IMG/VR virus record: IMGVR_UViG_3300042304_000641
Coordinates: 1-32,234 of that record
Source: a virus
DNA: 32,234 nt
Reading direction: 5' to 3' (one strand)
Shown: in pieces, positions 20,211-27,097 of the stretch
Position numbering within the stretch: position 1 is the stretch's first letter
How the letters are laid out: each line of letters starts with the position of its first letter
The notes under the pieces: generated by a model
The model's database searches: none
What the model was told of the DNA's origin: nothing
What the model saw: only the letters and a program-made list of their open reading frames with translations
Made by a program: the position numbers and the translations under genes

Positions 20211-22712
20211 ATGTCCCTACCCTTAACCCATGCTGGTGGATCAGTCGATGGAATTTCAGCGGCCTTGGATCTTCGATTCGCATCCAGCCTATCGCTAACC
20301 AGCACCAGCGGGATTACGCCATCGTTCAGCAGGGCATCAACTGGAACAGTTACTAATTCGTCTGGCGTACTCACCTCAGCAGCAGTAAACGCTCCCCGCT
20401 TCGACCACACCTACAACGGCACTAGCTGGGTGAGTAAAGGATTGCTGGTGGAGGAGCAGAGGACGAATTTGCACTTGTATTCTCAGCAGTTTGACAATGC
20501 GGCATGGATTAAATTTGACTCTACAATATCTGCTGATTTTGCCGCAGCACCAGATGGTACAACAACAGCGGACAAGAATATCCCAAATACATCGAACGCA
20601 GCTCACGGAGTGTATAACAATGCAGCTGCAAGTATATCATCAGGAGTAAAATACACTGCTTCTGTTTATGCGAAAGCAAGTGGATACAACTTTATTTTTG
20701 TTGTCGGCAATGTCAATGGCTCTTCTACTTTAGGCGGTGTATGTGTAAACCTTACCAACGGTAGTCAATCTAACGGCGGGGCAAGTGGAACTTATTCAGT
20801 TACTAATGTTGGCAATGGTTGGTGGCGAATTTCTTGCTCAGTAACTTCAGTGGGAACAAATGGATATATTGAAATTTTCCCTCGTTCCACCGCAGGTAAT
20901 AATGCTTCATTTGCAGGAAACGGAACAGACGGGGTGCTAATCTGGGGAACACAATTAGAGCTTGGAGCATTCCCCACCTCCTACATCCCCACCACCACAG
21001 CAGCGGTGACAAGATCGGCAGATGTATGTCAGATTACTGGGACGGAATTTAGTGGATTTTGGAATGCGAGTGAGGGGAGTTTAGTTTACGAAGCTGACTC
21101 ATCTAGCAATGTTATAGGTAATCATTTTGTATTTCTTGTTTCCGATGGGACTTTTAACAACCAATACCAATCCTCTCGTAGCCAAAATAATGCCTACACG
21201 GATGTTGGTTTTTGGGTTAAAAATGGAAATGTTTGGCAAGCCTTAATTAACACTTCTGCTGGCGCATGGTTGCAGGGAGCAACAAGCAAGGACGCAATGG
21301 CATATAAAGTTGACGATTTTGCTTTTAGCGACGATGGATCGGCAGTACTGACTGACGCATCTGGAACATTGCCAACGGTAAACAGGATGGAAATTGGTGG
21401 TTCTAGCTTGATAAGTGCAGCACTTAACGGTCACATCGCCCGCCTACGCTATTTCAATTCACGCCTTACCAATCAGCAATTAGAAGACCTATGCAAGCCT
21501 GAACAGCAATTAAAATTAGATCTAAATTTCAGCAGCAATTTATCGCTCACGCCGACTGTTGGCCCGACTCCAAGTTTTAGCAGGGCATCTACTGGAACCT
21601 ATTTTAATTCGGCTGGTGTATTGACTTCAGCAGCAATAAACGCTCCACGATTTAATCATGTCTACAACGGGTCTAGCTGGGTGAGTAAGGGGCTGTTGGT
21701 GGAGGAGCAGAGGACGAATTTAAATCTGTATAGTGAGCAGTTTAATAATGCTGCTTATTCAATCAACCAAGGAACAATTGCAACAAATCAGGCAGCAAGT
21801 CCAGATGGAACCACAACAGCCGAAAGTCTAACTGCTTCTGCTGGTACGGTAAACCCTTACGCTTACCAAGCCGTTACAACCGTCAACAGTTCTGTTTACA
21901 CATTTTCTATTTATGTAAAAAAGAATACACACGATTTTGTGCAAATTGTGCTAAATGGTGTGGCAAATGGTTTTGCCAATTTCAATATTAGCAGTGGGGT
22001 AGTGGGTACGCTTGGTGCAGGTGGGTCTGCCACATCATCAATAGTTAATGTTGGTAACGGATGGTACAGGTGCATAATTACATACACAGCAGCGGGAACG
22101 ACATCTGCCGGATACATTAACCTAATTGGCTCGGCGACAGCAGGGCGTGGAGCAACATTCACTGCTGCTGGAACGGAATCTGTCTACCTGTGGGGCCAGC
22201 AACTTGAGCTTGGCGCATTCCCCACCTCATACATCCCAACCACCACAGCAGCGGTGACAAGGTCAGCGGATGTTTGTGAGATAACTGGGACGGATTTTAG
22301 TGGGTTTTGGAATGCGACAGAAGGAACATTTGTTGCCGAGTGGGATTTTATAAAGACCACAGGTGGCACACCATTCACGGCACTTTCAACAGTATCATCT
22401 TTTATACAAATTTACAGGTCAGGTACGCCAGATCTGCGGTGGTTTGTTTATAACGGAACAACTCAAGCTGATTTTACAATTGGAAATGTGGCTTCGGTAA
22501 ATCGTGCTGCTGTTGCATATAAGGCAAATGATTTTGCCGGTTCATCTCTTGGTGGCGTAGTTGCAACAGATACATCCGGTTCTGTTCCGACAGCTAATAA
22601 ATTAAATATTTTGGTTGATGAAAATAGTGCTGCAGTAAGCGGCCACATCTCCCGCCTACGCTACTACGCTATCCGCCTTCCAAACCGATTACTAATCGCC
22701 AAGTCTACTTGA
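20211..22712 (+). CDS. Tail fibre / receptor-binding protein with tandem duplicated domain
   Basis: 833 residues in two related halves offset by 417 residues (about 19-435 and 436-833). Each half begins with SLSLT/SP-type strands, then TPSFSRASTGT, APRF-H-YNG-SWVSKGLLVEEQRTN, a beta-sandwich segment with W-R-x-S and GYI elements, FPTSYIPTTTAAVTRSADVC, a SGFWN-EG strand and a closing GHI-RLRYF. The parts look like carbohydrate-binding and LamG/concanavalin-type jelly rolls found in phage head spikes and fibres. Each half is probably one host-glycan-binding module. GAGGA precedes the ATG. It is the largest gene in the window. Confidence 0.75.
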   Translation: MSLPLTHAGGSVDGISAALDLRFASSLSLTSTSGITPSFSRASTGTVTNSSGVLTSAAVNAPRFDHTYNGTSWVSKGLLVEEQRTNLHLYSQQFDNAAWIKFDSTISADFAAAPDGTTTADKNIPNTSNAAHGVYNNAAASISSGVKYTASVYAKASGYNFIFVVGNVNGSSTLGGVCVNLTNGSQSNGGASGTYSVTNVGNGWWRISCSVTSVGTNGYIEIFPRSTAGNNASFAGNGTDGVLIWGTQLELGAFPTSYIPTTTAAVTRSADVCQITGTEFSGFWNASEGSLVYEADSSSNVIGNHFVFLVSDGTFNNQYQSSRSQNNAYTDVGFWVKNGNVWQALINTSAGAWLQGATSKDAMAYKVDDFAFSDDGSAVLTDASGTLPTVNRMEIGGSSLISAALNGHIARLRYFNSRLTNQQLEDLCKPEQQLKLDLNFSSNLSLTPTVGPTPSFSRASTGTYFNSAGVLTSAAINAPRFNHVYNGSSWVSKGLLVEEQRTNLNLYSEQFNNAAYSINQGTIATNQAASPDGTTTAESLTASAGTVNPYAYQAVTTVNSSVYTFSIYVKKNTHDFVQIVLNGVANGFANFNISSGVVGTLGAGGSATSSIVNVGNGWYRCIITYTAAGTTSAGYINLIGSATAGRGATFTAAGTESVYLWGQQLELGAFPTSYIPTTTAAVTRSADVCEITGTDFSGFWNATEGTFVAEWDFIKTTGGTPFTALSTVSSFIQIYRSGTPDLRWFVYNGTTQADFTIGNVASVNRAAVAYKANDFAGSSLGGVVATDTSGSVPTANKLNILVDENSAAVSGHISRLRYYAIRLPNRLLIAKST
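20265..21515 (+). repeat. Copy 1 of tandem internal duplication in fibre gene
   Basis: Copy 1 (1251 nt) of the two-domain repeat. It shares several nearly identical DNA blocks with copy 2, for example around 20430-20470 and 20965-21065, while the stretches between them have diverged strongly. Confidence 0.75.
21516..22712 (+). repeat. Copy 2 of tandem internal duplication in fibre gene
   Basis: Copy 2 begins at a TTAGATCTAAATTTC segment matching the start of copy 1 and runs to the stop. Blocks conserved with copy 1 lie near 21680-21722 and 22215-22315. The spacing between blocks differs by about one codon from copy 1. Confidence 0.75.
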
Positions 22713-22720
22713 GGTGAACC

Positions 22721-23059
22721 ATGATTGACATCCTTTTAAAATTCGATTCCCAACAGCAAGCCGGTTTAATCGGTGAGCAGCTTGGCTATACAACCCGTGA
22801 TCCTGAAACGGGCGAATTCCAAACCACACAAGCCACACTCACGCTAGCTATTTGCGTGATCGGTGTGCATTACTATCCAGATGGAACGACCACCGAAGGC
22901 TCGAATGGTGAGCAAGTTCCTAATCTGGTAGCTGACAATCAATACTGGGTGATGGTGCGGTCGCTAGTCGATCTGGAATTGCCCCCTGAGATTTTACCGT
23001 TTGTGGTAGAGCGCAATCCGGAAGATCCAACTCAACCCCAGCAGAGGTGGGCAGACTAA
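22721..23059 (+). CDS. Fibre-associated small protein, unknown
   Basis: 112 residues with GAGGTG 6 nt before the ATG. Strand-rich N-terminus, a helix-like QQQAGLIGEQLG segment, then a YYPDGTTTEG loop and an acidic Pro-rich end (PEDPTQPQQRWAD). Small proteins directly after fibre genes are often fibre chaperones or assembly factors, but this one has no recognisable family. It is packed 8 nt after the fibre stop and 1 nt before the next gene. Confidence 0.6.
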   Translation: MIDILLKFDSQQQAGLIGEQLGYTTRDPETGEFQTTQATLTLAICVIGVHYYPDGTTTEGSNGEQVPNLVADNQYWVMVRSLVDLELPPEILPFVVERNPEDPTQPQQRWAD

Positions 23060-23060
23060 T

Positions 23061-23702
23061 ATGACAGCTAAAAAGATCAGCGAGTTGACTGCAAAAACTC
23101 CAATAACATCCGATGTTTTGCCGGTGGCAGATCCGTCTACGGGGATTGCTGGCAAATCAACCTGCAATCAAATAATCGCATCTGCTGCCGGGTTTACTAA
23201 TAAAACTCCAGCTGTTGGTGATTGGATTCCGGTAGCAGATACAGCTACACCATCTGTCGCATGGAAAACTAGACCTTACTCGATAACTTACACGGGTCTT
23301 GCGTCATGGTCGAAATTTACCACCTATGGCTCATTTGCTTTTCAGTCTTACACCGTAAATATTTCGACCAACACAAACAATCTTCAAATTGGTGTGTTTG
23401 GATTAGTTAAATTGAACTGCACAGTTAATTCCGATTTGACAGGATTGGTTTCTGAAGATGTTCGTTCTAACGAAGTGGTAATTCCGGGTGGATCAGTAAC
23501 AGCAGCATTGGACGGCCAAGTTGTTTACCTGTTGAATGTAGGAACAAATAGCGTTTCCATTAAGAGCGACGACTCAGCGAGTACCGCAGCAAATAGATTT
23601 CTCACTCACAACGGTGGGAATTTGGCATTAGCTGCAAATCACATGGCAATAGCCCTGTATGATACGGGTGTTTCCCGGTGGCGTGTTTGGAATTTGACAT
23701 GA
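23061..23702 (+). CDS. Tail spike/fibre-like protein
   Basis: 213 residues. The N-terminus KKISELTAKTPITSDVLPVAD followed by a second TPAVGDWIPVAD segment matches the short K-I-S-E-L-T ... D-x-x-P-V-A-D repeats at the head of many phage tail fibre and spike proteins, where they act as virion-attachment modules. The rest is a beta-rich domain rich in Asn, Ser and Thr, ending GVSRWRVWNLT, which may form a small trimeric tip. It closes the structural block; the next 140 nt are non-coding and foldable. Confidence 0.65.
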   Translation: MTAKKISELTAKTPITSDVLPVADPSTGIAGKSTCNQIIASAAGFTNKTPAVGDWIPVADTATPSVAWKTRPYSITYTGLASWSKFTTYGSFAFQSYTVNISTNTNNLQIGVFGLVKLNCTVNSDLTGLVSEDVRSNEVVIPGGSVTAALDGQVVYLLNVGTNSVSIKSDDSASTAANRFLTHNGGNLALAANHMAIALYDTGVSRWRVWNLT

Positions 23703-23723
23703 TGACATAAACAGACAATTGAA

Positions 23724-23820
23724 ATATCCGGGGCAGGGCGGGGTTGTTTTTGCTGTTTCCTGACACGCCTCACGCCACTCCAGAAGATGAACAGCGTCAT
23801 GGAGTGGTTGCCCCGGCTAT
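23724..23820 (+). ncRNA. Candidate structured RNA element in intergenic gap
   Basis: The 142-nt gap between 23702 and 23845 contains nested pairing. An outer helix CCGGGGCA (23728-23735) pairs with TGCCCCGG (23809-23816), extended by ATA/TAT past one mismatch. An inner helix CCACTCC (23775-23781) pairs with GGAGTGG (23801-23807), and ATGA/TCAT (23787-23790/23797-23800) closes a 6-nt loop. A third possible helix GGGCG/CGCCT (23736-23740/23766-23770) would make a three-way junction. No poly-T follows, so a simple terminator is unlikely. It may be an independent RNA, a leader or an mRNA-processing element. The strand is chosen from neighbouring genes; an inverted repeat alone would also suit DNA binding. 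Confidence 0.45.
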
Positions 23821-23844
23821 CTCTTCCTTTACTGGAGAGTCTAA

Positions 23845-24696
23845 ATGGATTGGTCAATTCGACAAACTGATCCCCATGCCTATCGCTTAGACTTTACAGG
23901 ATTAAAGGACAGGGATTGGAGGCGTGTCATGCTCCTATCTGATCTGCACTGGGATTCCGCTCAATGTAATCGAGAACTGCTCAAGAGAGACTTGGACGAG
24001 GCATTAAAAACGGGAACTCCTGTCATTCTGGTTGGCGATACATTTGATATTATGCAGGGCAAATTTGATAAGCGGAAATCGGCCAAATCACTTCGACCAG
24101 AACACCAAACAGACAATTATATTGACACAGTTATTGATGACGCAATAGACTGGTTTACCCCTTACAGGGATGTTCTAGCCCTTGTCTCAAAGGGAAATCA
24201 TGAGACATCTTGGGAAAAATATCACGACACGGATGTATGCGCCCGATTTGTATCTGGATTGAGGCGCAATAAATCCTCTGTACTTCTTGGAAAGTATTGG
24301 GGATTCGTGCAGATCGGAATGATTGAAAATCCAAAGAATCGAATATCAAAAACATTATTTTTTCACCACGGAGCAGGTGGTGGTGGAGAAATTACAAGAG
24401 GCCTTATAGATAACTCTAGAACTAGAGGTATGTATATGGCAGATGCTTTCATATCTGGACATATCCATAGACGAAATTTAGATGAGAATATAGTATATCA
24501 TTTAAACAACTTGGGAACAGTCTGTGCAAGGCAACAGCTATTCCTTCGCAGTTCGACCTATAAGATTGAGGATGATGGGTATCACGCAGAAAAAGGACGG
24601 GGGCCAAGGCCTCTGGGTGGATGGTGGCTTGAATTGCGCTATCTACGGAATTCAGATGTTGGGACTGATTGCAATATGAGGGCTTATCAGACATGA
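23845..24696 (+). CDS. Calcineurin-like metallophosphoesterase
   Basis: 283 residues with the full dinuclear metal-site set in order: D33-x-H35 (SDLHWD), G64-D65-x2-D68 (GDTFD), G117-N118-H119-E120, H174/H175 (FFHHG) and G205-H206-x-H208 (GHIH). The fold hydrolyses phosphoesters; substrates range from DNA ends to cyclic nucleotides and nucleotide polyphosphates, and nothing here fixes which. There is no signal peptide, so it should act in the cytoplasm. It is the first gene of a four-gene cassette and overlaps the next start by 4 nt (ATGA). Its place after the fibre genes is unusual, since phage metallophosphoesterases more often lie with replication genes. Confidence 0.88.
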   Translation: MDWSIRQTDPHAYRLDFTGLKDRDWRRVMLLSDLHWDSAQCNRELLKRDLDEALKTGTPVILVGDTFDIMQGKFDKRKSAKSLRPEHQTDNYIDTVIDDAIDWFTPYRDVLALVSKGNHETSWEKYHDTDVCARFVSGLRRNKSSVLLGKYWGFVQIGMIENPKNRISKTLFFHHGAGGGGEITRGLIDNSRTRGMYMADAFISGHIHRRNLDENIVYHLNNLGTVCARQQLFLRSSTYKIEDDGYHAEKGRGPRPLGGWWLELRYLRNSDVGTDCNMRAYQT

Positions 24697-25409
24697 TTAC
24701 CACCACTCTTGGACTGTTAATTCTGATTGCGAATCAGCAACCAAAGCTGACTTTTCCAGCAAGACTGCAAGGTTTGCCGGGATCGTTCATCGTTGTCAAG
24801 CCTATTCAGATTGACGGCAAATCAGTCAAATACTTCACTCCGTCACCCGGCTTGAATCTATTCCCAGCTGACCTTCTATCGGACAAGACGGCAACGGTTG
24901 CAACTGCCAATTTGCCGGGTAAATACCTTGTCTACGGGTATACGGCACTGGGCGACATTCCAAGCGATCCAGCATCAATTGAAATCATTATTGGTGATCC
25001 CGGTCCAACTCCATTCCCTCCTAAGCCTCCAGCCCCAAATCCTCCTGATCCTGATCCTACTCCTTCTCCAACTGATCCTTTATCAGAAGCATTGGAGGCT
25101 ATTTGGGGCGCACTAGACGAGCCTAACAAGGTTCAATCCAGAGCCAAACTAGCTCAAGTCTATCGGGAATCAGCCAAGGTCTGTAAAGATCCAGCCTTCT
25201 TAACTGTTGGACAGGCTTTTGCACGATCCAAGGAGATCGGTAGGGCTACACTACCAGATTCATCATTATCTTCGCTCAGATCGAGGATCAGCGAGGAATT
25301 GAGGTCTGTGGTCCCAATTGATCCTTCCGTTATTCTGAGCGCAGAATTGAGGGCAAAGATCGCATCTCAGCTGGATCGTATGGCTAACCTTGTGGAATCC
25401 TTGAGGTAA
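24693..25409 (+). CDS. Planctomycete-type protein with beta domain, Pro-rich linker and helical C-terminus
   Basis: 238 residues from the ATG overlapping the previous stop (GAGGG lies 9 nt upstream). A short hydrophobic N-terminus (TTTLGLLILIA) could be a signal or anchor but lacks a clear cleavage region. An Ig-like beta segment follows (SFIVVKPIQIDGKSVKYFT ... LPGKYLVYGYTALGD), then a Pro-rich linker (about 103-129) and a helical domain (SEALEAIWGALDE ... MANLVESLR). I associate this beta/Pro-linker/helical layout with proteins from planctomycete phages and prophages. Possible roles are a periplasmic or tail-associated factor working with the adjacent peptidase. Confidence 0.55.
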   Translation: MITTTLGLLILIANQQPKLTFPARLQGLPGSFIVVKPIQIDGKSVKYFTPSPGLNLFPADLLSDKTATVATANLPGKYLVYGYTALGDIPSDPASIEIIIGDPGPTPFPPKPPAPNPPDPDPTPSPTDPLSEALEAIWGALDEPNKVQSRAKLAQVYRESAKVCKDPAFLTVGQAFARSKEIGRATLPDSSLSSLRSRISEELRSVVPIDPSVILSAELRAKIASQLDRMANLVESLR

Positions 25410-25413
25410 TAAC

Positions 25414-26319
25414 ATGGAAGACCAATTTTACAAGCCGGGATGGGAAGATCGACCAGAAGAGGTTGTAGCGATTGCTGACCTCCAGCCTATGCCTGTATTC
25501 GGTGACACTCCAGCAGGGCAGGCTGATATTGTTCTGCCTAAAACCTGCTACTTTTGGAAAGTCCATGAGAAGGTTACTGGGCAAAAGCCAACCCCATATA
25601 ACCAACTAAAGGTGGGCAGCTGCGTTGGCTTTGGAGCAGTTTCGGCCATTGAGGGCACAATGGTCAATGAGATCATGCGTGGAGAGAAAGAGGAATTCCG
25701 TCCTCTCTGCCAAGAGGTCAGTTATGCCGGTTCACGAATTGAAATTGGCAAGGGTAGGCTTGGTAGAGGCGATGGATCAATTGGCGCATGGGCAGCTGAA
25801 TTTGCTTTAAAGTATGGTTCTATTGATCGTGGAGTTCATGGCAAATACGATCTCAGAAAATACAGTGAAGAGCTATGCCGGGAATGGGGAAATTCTGGTG
25901 TTCCAGATGATCTTGAACCTACTGTCAAGAAGTATCCCGTAAAGGGGATTACGCTAGTCAAAAATTGGGAAGATGCCAAGAAGGCATTGGCTCAAGGCTA
26001 CGGGATTAGCGTTGCATCTAATCAGGGTTTCACCATGTCCCGTGATGCCAAGGGAATGGCACAGCCCAAGGGGCGATGGATGCACCAAATGTGCCTATGG
26101 GGCTACTCCACAGAAGGCAGTGAAAAGGGCTGGATTAGAAATAGTTGGGGCGCAAATGCTCATACTGGCCCAGTAGGTGAAGGTGGTCCACCCACTAGCG
26201 GATTCTGGGCCGATGCCGAAGTTATCTCTAAAATGCTAAGCCAAGGTGATTCTTGGGCCTTCTCTGGACTGTCTGGATTCCCAGCCAAAGATGTAATCAA
26301 TGTCGATTGGAATCTCTAG
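25414..26319 (+). CDS. Papain-like (C1 family) cysteine peptidase
   Basis: 301 residues with the papain triad in order: Q64 (oxyanion hole) and C70 in NQLKVGSCVGFGAVSAIEG, H224 in MHQMCLWGYS, N243 in IRNSWG. The segment after Cys70 and the I-R-N-S-W-G motif match C1A-type enzymes closely. No signal peptide or long inhibitory propeptide is visible (about 60 residues precede the catalytic region). Phages rarely encode papain-like enzymes. Possible roles are lysis of a proteinaceous wall, cleavage of virion proteins, or attack on a host factor. AGGTA precedes the ATG. It lies between the Pro-rich protein and a small membrane protein. Confidence 0.85.
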   Translation: MEDQFYKPGWEDRPEEVVAIADLQPMPVFGDTPAGQADIVLPKTCYFWKVHEKVTGQKPTPYNQLKVGSCVGFGAVSAIEGTMVNEIMRGEKEEFRPLCQEVSYAGSRIEIGKGRLGRGDGSIGAWAAEFALKYGSIDRGVHGKYDLRKYSEELCREWGNSGVPDDLEPTVKKYPVKGITLVKNWEDAKKALAQGYGISVASNQGFTMSRDAKGMAQPKGRWMHQMCLWGYSTEGSEKGWIRNSWGANAHTGPVGEGGPPTSGFWADAEVISKMLSQGDSWAFSGLSGFPAKDVINVDWNL

Positions 26320-26675: not shown

Positions 26676-26737
26676 GGGGTTGAGCAGGTAATTGGCTATC
26701 TGTGTTGGATTGCCAAGGTGGGGGCTTGCTCAACCCC
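26676..26737. other. 11-bp perfect inverted repeat, possible terminator or RNA switch
   Basis: GGGGTTGAGCA (26676-26686) and TGCTCAACCCC (26727-26737) are perfectly complementary. The 40-nt loop has a second small helix TTGGC/GCCAA (26692-26696/26712-26716). It sits in the 82-nt gap between the membrane protein and the HNH gene. No T-run follows, and the 3' arm ends 12 nt before the ATG at 26750, so it could cover the translation start or stop transcription with help from a factor. Confidence 0.5.
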
Positions 26738-26749
26738 AAGGATACTTTA

Positions 26750-27097
26750 ATGCTATCAGACATTATTAGCTTTGGTCAGCGTATCTGGGGTGAGATTCAG
26801 CGTTCATCCCGTTGGCCATCCGTTAGGGCTAAATTCTTAAAGGGGAAATCCTGCTCAGCCTGTGGGACAAAGAAGAATCTGGAAGCGCATCATGTTATCC
26901 CACTAGCTCATGGTGGAGATGAATTAGAGGAATCAAATCTAATTGGACTATGCCGTAATTGCCATTACTTTATTGGACATCTCCAAGACTGGACAAGTTT
27001 TAATTGTGATGTCCATGCTGACTCTGCATCGTATTTACAGAAGCATAATAATCGACCAAAACTCATCAAGCCGGAAGAAGATACGCCACTTATCTAA
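26750..27097 (+). CDS. HNH endonuclease
   Basis: 115 residues from ATG 26750. An upstream GTG at 26702 is open but would run through the hairpin arm. Motifs: C35-x2-C38 (CSACG), H47-H48 (LEAHHVIPLAHGGDE), N63 (ESNLIGLC), C68-x2-C71-H72 (CRNCH). This is the ββα-metal fold with an additional zinc site. Phage HNH proteins assist terminase cutting or act as mobile nicking enzymes; here it stands alone at the end of the + strand block, far from terL in this linear view, but possibly near it if the genome is circular or permuted. The stop overlaps that of the convergent - strand gene. Confidence 0.85.
   Translation: MLSDIISFGQRIWGEIQRSSRWPSVRAKFLKGKSCSACGTKKNLEAHHVIPLAHGGDELEESNLIGLCRNCHYFIGHLQDWTSFNCDVHADSASYLQKHNNRPKLIKPEEDTPLI

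Follow-up and report, generated by a model that had tools for sequence, protein, structure and literature searches.

The packaging RNA (pRNA) of phage phi29 is a phage-borne three-way junction with two complementary hairpin loops that pair between molecules, and purine riboswitch aptamers are three-way junctions with an L2-L3 kissing contact, in which the conserved bases lie in the junction. ROOL, GOLLD and OLE, which occur naturally in bacteria or phages, assemble into homo-oligomers, and for ROOL intermolecular kissing loops have been described (PMC12286853). CyVA-1 (Rfam RF02965), for which the Rfam model is 77 nt long and covers one unit, was found as an RNA of low abundance in halite cyanobacteria (PMC7002113), the only paper to name it among those recovered in our literature search. 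Here we analyzed a virus record of 32,234 bases (IMGVR_UViG_3300042304_000641; in full, the window), a tailed-phage fragment with genes for a terminase large subunit and a lambda-type portal, in which a 142-nt gap between two genes (23703-23844) holds a structured RNA with three stems (P1, P2 and P3) around a three-way junction and a 97-nt core. We think it fairly probable that this element is a single-unit, divergent, phage-borne relative of CyVA-1 with L2-L3 kissing, which would likely form a homodimer and act as a stand-alone RNA or ribonucleoprotein (RNP). It resembles phi29 pRNA in carrying complementary loops on a three-way junction, but Rfam scans of the element gave no match to a pRNA family, the phage has an ordinary terminase large subunit (Terminase_6N/6C, Terminase_3), which does not point to a phi29-like packaging motor, and RNAs of the CyVA-1 type also occur in bacterial genomes, beside housekeeping genes. 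With purine riboswitches it shares both the junction and the L2-L3 kiss, whereas its conserved bases lie in the loops and Rfam reports no match to them; ROOL, GOLLD and OLE differ in being far larger and of other structures, again with no Rfam match for the window element.

A preliminary description of this DNA had proposed a structured RNA built of nested inverted repeats, and folding and covariation bear this out. The gap length was given correctly, and the outer helix (CCGGGGCA 23728-23735 / TGCCCCGG 23809-23816), its ATA/TAT extension (23724-23726 / 23818-23820) and the inner helix (CCACTCC 23775-23781 / GGAGTGG 23801-23807) all lie exactly where they had been placed (Table 1). The inner helix, P3, gains an eighth pair, A23782-T23800, which competes with a 4-bp ATGA/TCAT cap that the same description had drawn; the cap is not conserved, reading ATGA/ACAA in two relatives (L010 and L012) and other letters in the rest of the family. 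Positions 23724-23820 fold at -41.5 kcal/mol (z = -3.03), a value that none of 200 dinucleotide shuffles matched, while the whole gap gives z = -2.13 and its reverse strand z = -1.93; when the gap was dinucleotide-shuffled 20,000 times, nested perfect arms of 8 and 7 bp arose in 80 cases (0.4%). None of 50,697 phage records was related at the nucleotide level to the stretch from 22700 to 24700, and a search for nucleotide matches to the element in phage or plasmid records returned none that was convincing.

Table 1. Positions of the structured RNA, its parts and flanking genes in the window, and of second units in cyanobacterial loci.
Feature	Position	Strand	Partner or evidence
CyVA-1-like structured RNA, single unit, three-way junction	23724-23820	+	RF02965 match 23730-23814 and model R1 match 23724-23825
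P1 5' strand: ATA, one mismatch, CCGGGGCA	23724-23735	+	partner 23809-23820; double changes in 4/11 pairs, window clade
P1 3' strand: TGCCCCGG, one mismatch, TAT	23809-23820	+	helix at sequence level; window-clade covariation
P2 5' strand: GGCG; T23744; G23746, internal loop	23737-23746	+	partner 23760-23769
P2 3' strand	23760-23769	+	window-clade covariation
Loop L2 TTTTTGCTGTTTC; kissing bases GCTGTT 23752-23757	23747-23759	+	near-invariant in 30 single-unit elements
P3 5' strand CCACTCCA	23775-23782	+	partner 23800-23807; 3 pairs double-changed in window clade
P3 3' strand TGGAGTGG	23800-23807	+	window-clade covariation
Loop L3 GAAGATGAACAGCGTCA; kissing bases AACAGC 23790-23795	23783-23799	+	family motif GAAGnnGAACnnCGUCA; kiss covaries
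Upstream flank: tail-region ORF, 213 aa, without family match	23061-23702	+	
Downstream flank: calcineurin-like metallophosphoesterase, 283 aa	23845-24696	+	PF00149 E 3.9e-5; phrog_7339 E 3e-17
Second unit of cyanobacterial tandem, extra hairpin in L3	L036 3618-3729; L038 6350-6438; L074 1633-1746; L076 1644-1754		

Although Rfam at default thresholds returned no match for the gap element, its sensitive mode aligned RF02965 to it from end to end (model positions 1-77 of 77) with 31.1 bits and E 1.4e-5, below the gathering score of 41.4, which other phage copies exceed (L021, 65.9; L028, 53.9; L017, 45.0 bits). From 19 CyVA-1-like sequences, mostly above the gathering score and none from the window clade, we built a covariance model (R1), which found the window element at 23724-23825 with 52.6 bits (E 2.3e-12) and six relatives of its clade with 49.0-54.4 bits. 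Because the Rfam model aligns over its full length and R1 scores 52.6 bits, the window element is a divergent phage-borne relative of CyVA-1, and not a listed member by the Rfam cut-off. Common to both are the three-way junction, the L2 motif UUUUnCnGUUU, the L3 motif GAAGnnGAaCnnCGUCA and a short junction before the 3' strand of P1; the shared loop letters read UUUU-C-GUUU and GAAG-GAAC-CGUCA, and UUUUnCnGUUU and GAAGnnGAACnnCGUCA are both present in the window element. The window clade differs in falling below the gathering score and in a longer P2 with an internal loop, and two of its members (L010 and L012) read GACA where GUCA stands. A loop-based pattern search added numerous viral contigs, together with ten good loci in bacteria, and constrained folding gave a three-way junction of the same layout in nearly all pattern loci and in 0 of 5 chance matches; these five (L034, L035, L039, L041 and L047), in which the structure does not form, were dropped as probable chance matches, although two of them, with R1 scores of 20.1 (L039) and 19.2 bits (L041), may yet be relatives. 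With screening filters that miss weak copies, e.g. those of the window type, RF02965 hits occurred in 3 of the 199 genomes of a phylum-level sample centered on an Acidobacteriaceae genome, in 17 of the 194 of a cyanobacterial sample and in 53 of the 148 from a single cyanobacterial order.

Compensatory changes, for which the preliminary description had proposed a covariance analysis, were found in its outer and inner helices and also in the third arm it had suggested, P2, supporting the three-way junction. In the window clade alone (alignment A5, 7 sequences), 8 pairs had changed on both sides, compared to 2.6 in shuffles, spread over P1, P2 and P3 (12 double-change cells vs 2.8), with, e.g., T23744-A23763 of P2 replaced by A-T in L009 and L010. 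In the alignment of 19 sequences (A1), the structure including the kiss had 84.0% of cells paired (shuffles, 59.6%; slid controls, 41.8-51.6%) and 142 double-change cells vs 53.7 in shuffles. On a further alignment (A3), in which MAFFT misplaces P1 and P2 owing to their variable length, RNAalifold found no more than P3 and a single pair within L3, and the evidence for P1 and P2 was taken from A1 and A5.

The two hairpin loops, L2 of 13 nt and L3 of 17 nt, share a conserved contact of 6 bp between GCUGUU (23752-23757) and AACAGC (23790-23795), with 99.4% pairing across 30 single-unit elements. The third pair of this helix is U-A in 16, C-G in 8 and G-C in 6 of these, and in L059 a G-C of the helix is also replaced by A-U; within the window clade the kiss is invariant, and its covariation support comes from the wider family. 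Covariation thus shows three variable stems holding two nearly invariant loops, and base pairing of L2 with L3. The earlier proposal that CTGTTT (23753-23758) takes part in a loop contact was right, with a different partner: the sequence it pairs with is AACAGC in the inner hairpin loop, rather than AAACAG at 23709-23714. The latter falls outside the element, and none of the six clade relatives has it in the 30 nt that precede their own element, so that the pseudoknot first drawn between AAACAG and CTGTTT does not stand. Contacts to a protein or another RNA might be made through conserved parts of the loops, namely GAAGnnG/GUCA and the U-rich stretch; no partner protein for the RNA was found.

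In cyanobacterial copies, a second three-way junction lies 3' of the CyVA-1 unit. R1 reaches this second unit at about 25-33 bits in many cyanobacterial loci and RF02965 touches some second units at ~30 bits, while an Rfam scan of two loci (L036 and L038) gave no match to it at E <= 0.1. RNAalifold on 38 tandems (A2) predicted the stems of both units and an extra hairpin inside L3 of the second, with double changes in 30 of 31 predicted pairs. In Baaleninema simplex PCC 7105 (L036), L2 of unit 1 (GCUGUU) pairs with L3 of unit 2 (AACAGC), and L2 of unit 2 (GUCGUU) with L3 of unit 1 (AACGAC). Across the 38 loci the cross-unit pairing is 96.7% paired, with double changes in 9 of 12 pairs and 76 double-change cells vs 20.3 in shuffles, as compared to 82.0% and 30 vs 15.9 for within-unit pairing in the same sequences on the same tree; the six-base registers behind these figures were set on L058 alone and read from alignment columns for the other tandems, MAFFT having placed a small gap inside the register in both L3 loops, and L078 ends at its last loop base. 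When 26 distinct loop sets were permuted, the observed pairing was reached in 0 of 20000 permutations for both cross pairings, and in 1369 and 3173 of 20000 for the within-unit ones. L2-L3 pairing within a tandem unit is no better than chance. Comparison shows cyanobacterial CyVA-1 to be half of a tandem, with two units that interlock by two reciprocal L2-L3 pairings, an arrangement that is new as far as could be checked.

Two junctions of this kind can dock by two reciprocal kisses, and a single-unit RNA with complementary L2 and L3 can do so with another copy of itself; we give even or somewhat better than even odds to the phage RNA being a homodimer. Its self-complementary loops would then hold two copies together through two L2-L3 kisses, like the pair built into the cyanobacterial tandem; the RNA would be made from, or cut out of, a late transcript and would act as a stand-alone RNA or RNP, rather than switching any single gene. 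The same RNA could instead be a monomer with an intramolecular, purine-riboswitch-like L2-L3 kiss, the cyanobacterial tandem having arisen by a later domain swap. Covariation in single-unit RNAs is compatible with either kind of kiss, and the self-complementarity in 30 of 30 single-unit elements fits an intramolecular contact equally well, as do the long loops, but tandems keep the cross-unit contact and lose the within-unit one, i.e. the junction geometry supports kissing between units, and we regard the monomer as rather unlikely. For the class as a whole, the evidence leaves us evenly balanced on whether CyVA-1-type RNAs are natural RNAs of ~100 nt that assemble in pairs, as homodimers in phages and some bacteria and as two diverged, fused units in cyanobacteria.

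The genomic neighborhood bears on the remaining alternatives. The window element lies 24 nt 5' of the start codon of the metallophosphoesterase gene, in the same direction, and in five records (the window, L002, L005, L007 and L009) it is found before this gene, just 5' of its ribosome-binding site, whatever the upstream gene, which differs among them. This would suit a cis-acting leader, riboswitch-like or for translational control, yet such a leader is improbable: metallophosphoesterase homologues in L003, L004, L006 and L008 have no element, L010, L012 and further carriers have other neighbors, and crude ORF calls at 37 cyanobacterial loci put the closest downstream gene in antisense orientation at 22 and the closest upstream gene in the same direction as the RNA at 25. 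As a general role, a gene-specific leader was rejected on account of these differing neighbors and of the close homologues lacking the element. Among 54 ORFs flanking cyanobacterial copies, a Pfam scan found no family in more than 3, and thus no shared neighbor, and bacterial copies also adjoin housekeeping genes. The preliminary placement between the last fibre gene and an enzyme cassette is true of the window and is no rule, other carriers having different neighbors. Since neighbor genes differ between carriers, the RNA probably acts on its own, and the cyanobacterial gene orientations suit a leader less well than an RNA that stands alone or derives from a 3' end. If the element acted only as DNA, with no RNA role, a mobile palindromic insertion (MITE-, REP- or attC-like) would explain why some close phage relatives have it in front of a given gene and others have that gene without it, and could account for the TATCC found at both element borders in L002 (4879-4984) and L005 (3778-3883), where the homologous sites without the element in L003, L004 and L008 have CATATCC once; these borders may reflect target-site duplication or mere coincidence. 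We consider such an insertion highly improbable, as the stems keep pairing, the loops are fixed, the loop-loop pairs covary, including G-U pairs, and copies are few: one clear copy per phage record (records possibly being fragments), with no clear second copy found with R1 in the window or its phage relatives, and usually one to four per genome. An ordinary terminator, or inverted repeats by chance, has next to no probability, although the hairpins are rich in GC and separate a tail gene from an accessory cassette: a search for a stem-loop followed by a T run found no terminator-like site in the element, as the preliminary description had maintained, the fold has the z-score given above, and family-wide covariation refutes this reading.

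These results extend the CyVA-1 family to many phages, add a second tandem unit that Rfam does not report in the two loci tested (L036 and L038), and give a testable architecture of reciprocal loop-loop pairing between units. If the single-unit RNAs dimerise, they would represent a compact natural RNA assembly of ~100 nt per unit, which would be an easy target for cryo-EM, SAXS and RNA design, as well as a way to learn what an orphan class of RNAs does.

Several further features were seen near individual copies. Directly upstream of the element, L010 (7224-7553) and L012 (5247-5597) have an ORF that by eye resembles the HNH endonuclease of the window, the gene for which lies at 26702-27097, about 2.9 kb downstream of the element; the accessory cassette of the window also encodes a papain-family cysteine protease (25414-26319), near the metallophosphoesterase gene. 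On the reverse strand of L043 (Alsobacter metallidurans), from about 6.3 kb, the element lies upstream of DNA methyltransferase-like and GIY-YIG-like genes, read by eye as a possible restriction-modification pair. A tRNA gene (2463-2536) lies ~400 nt from the CyVA-1 copy of the phage contig L020, on the same strand, and one contig (L061) carries two near-identical CyVA-1 elements (1490-1583 and 2216-2309) ~730 nt apart, which suggests a recent duplication.
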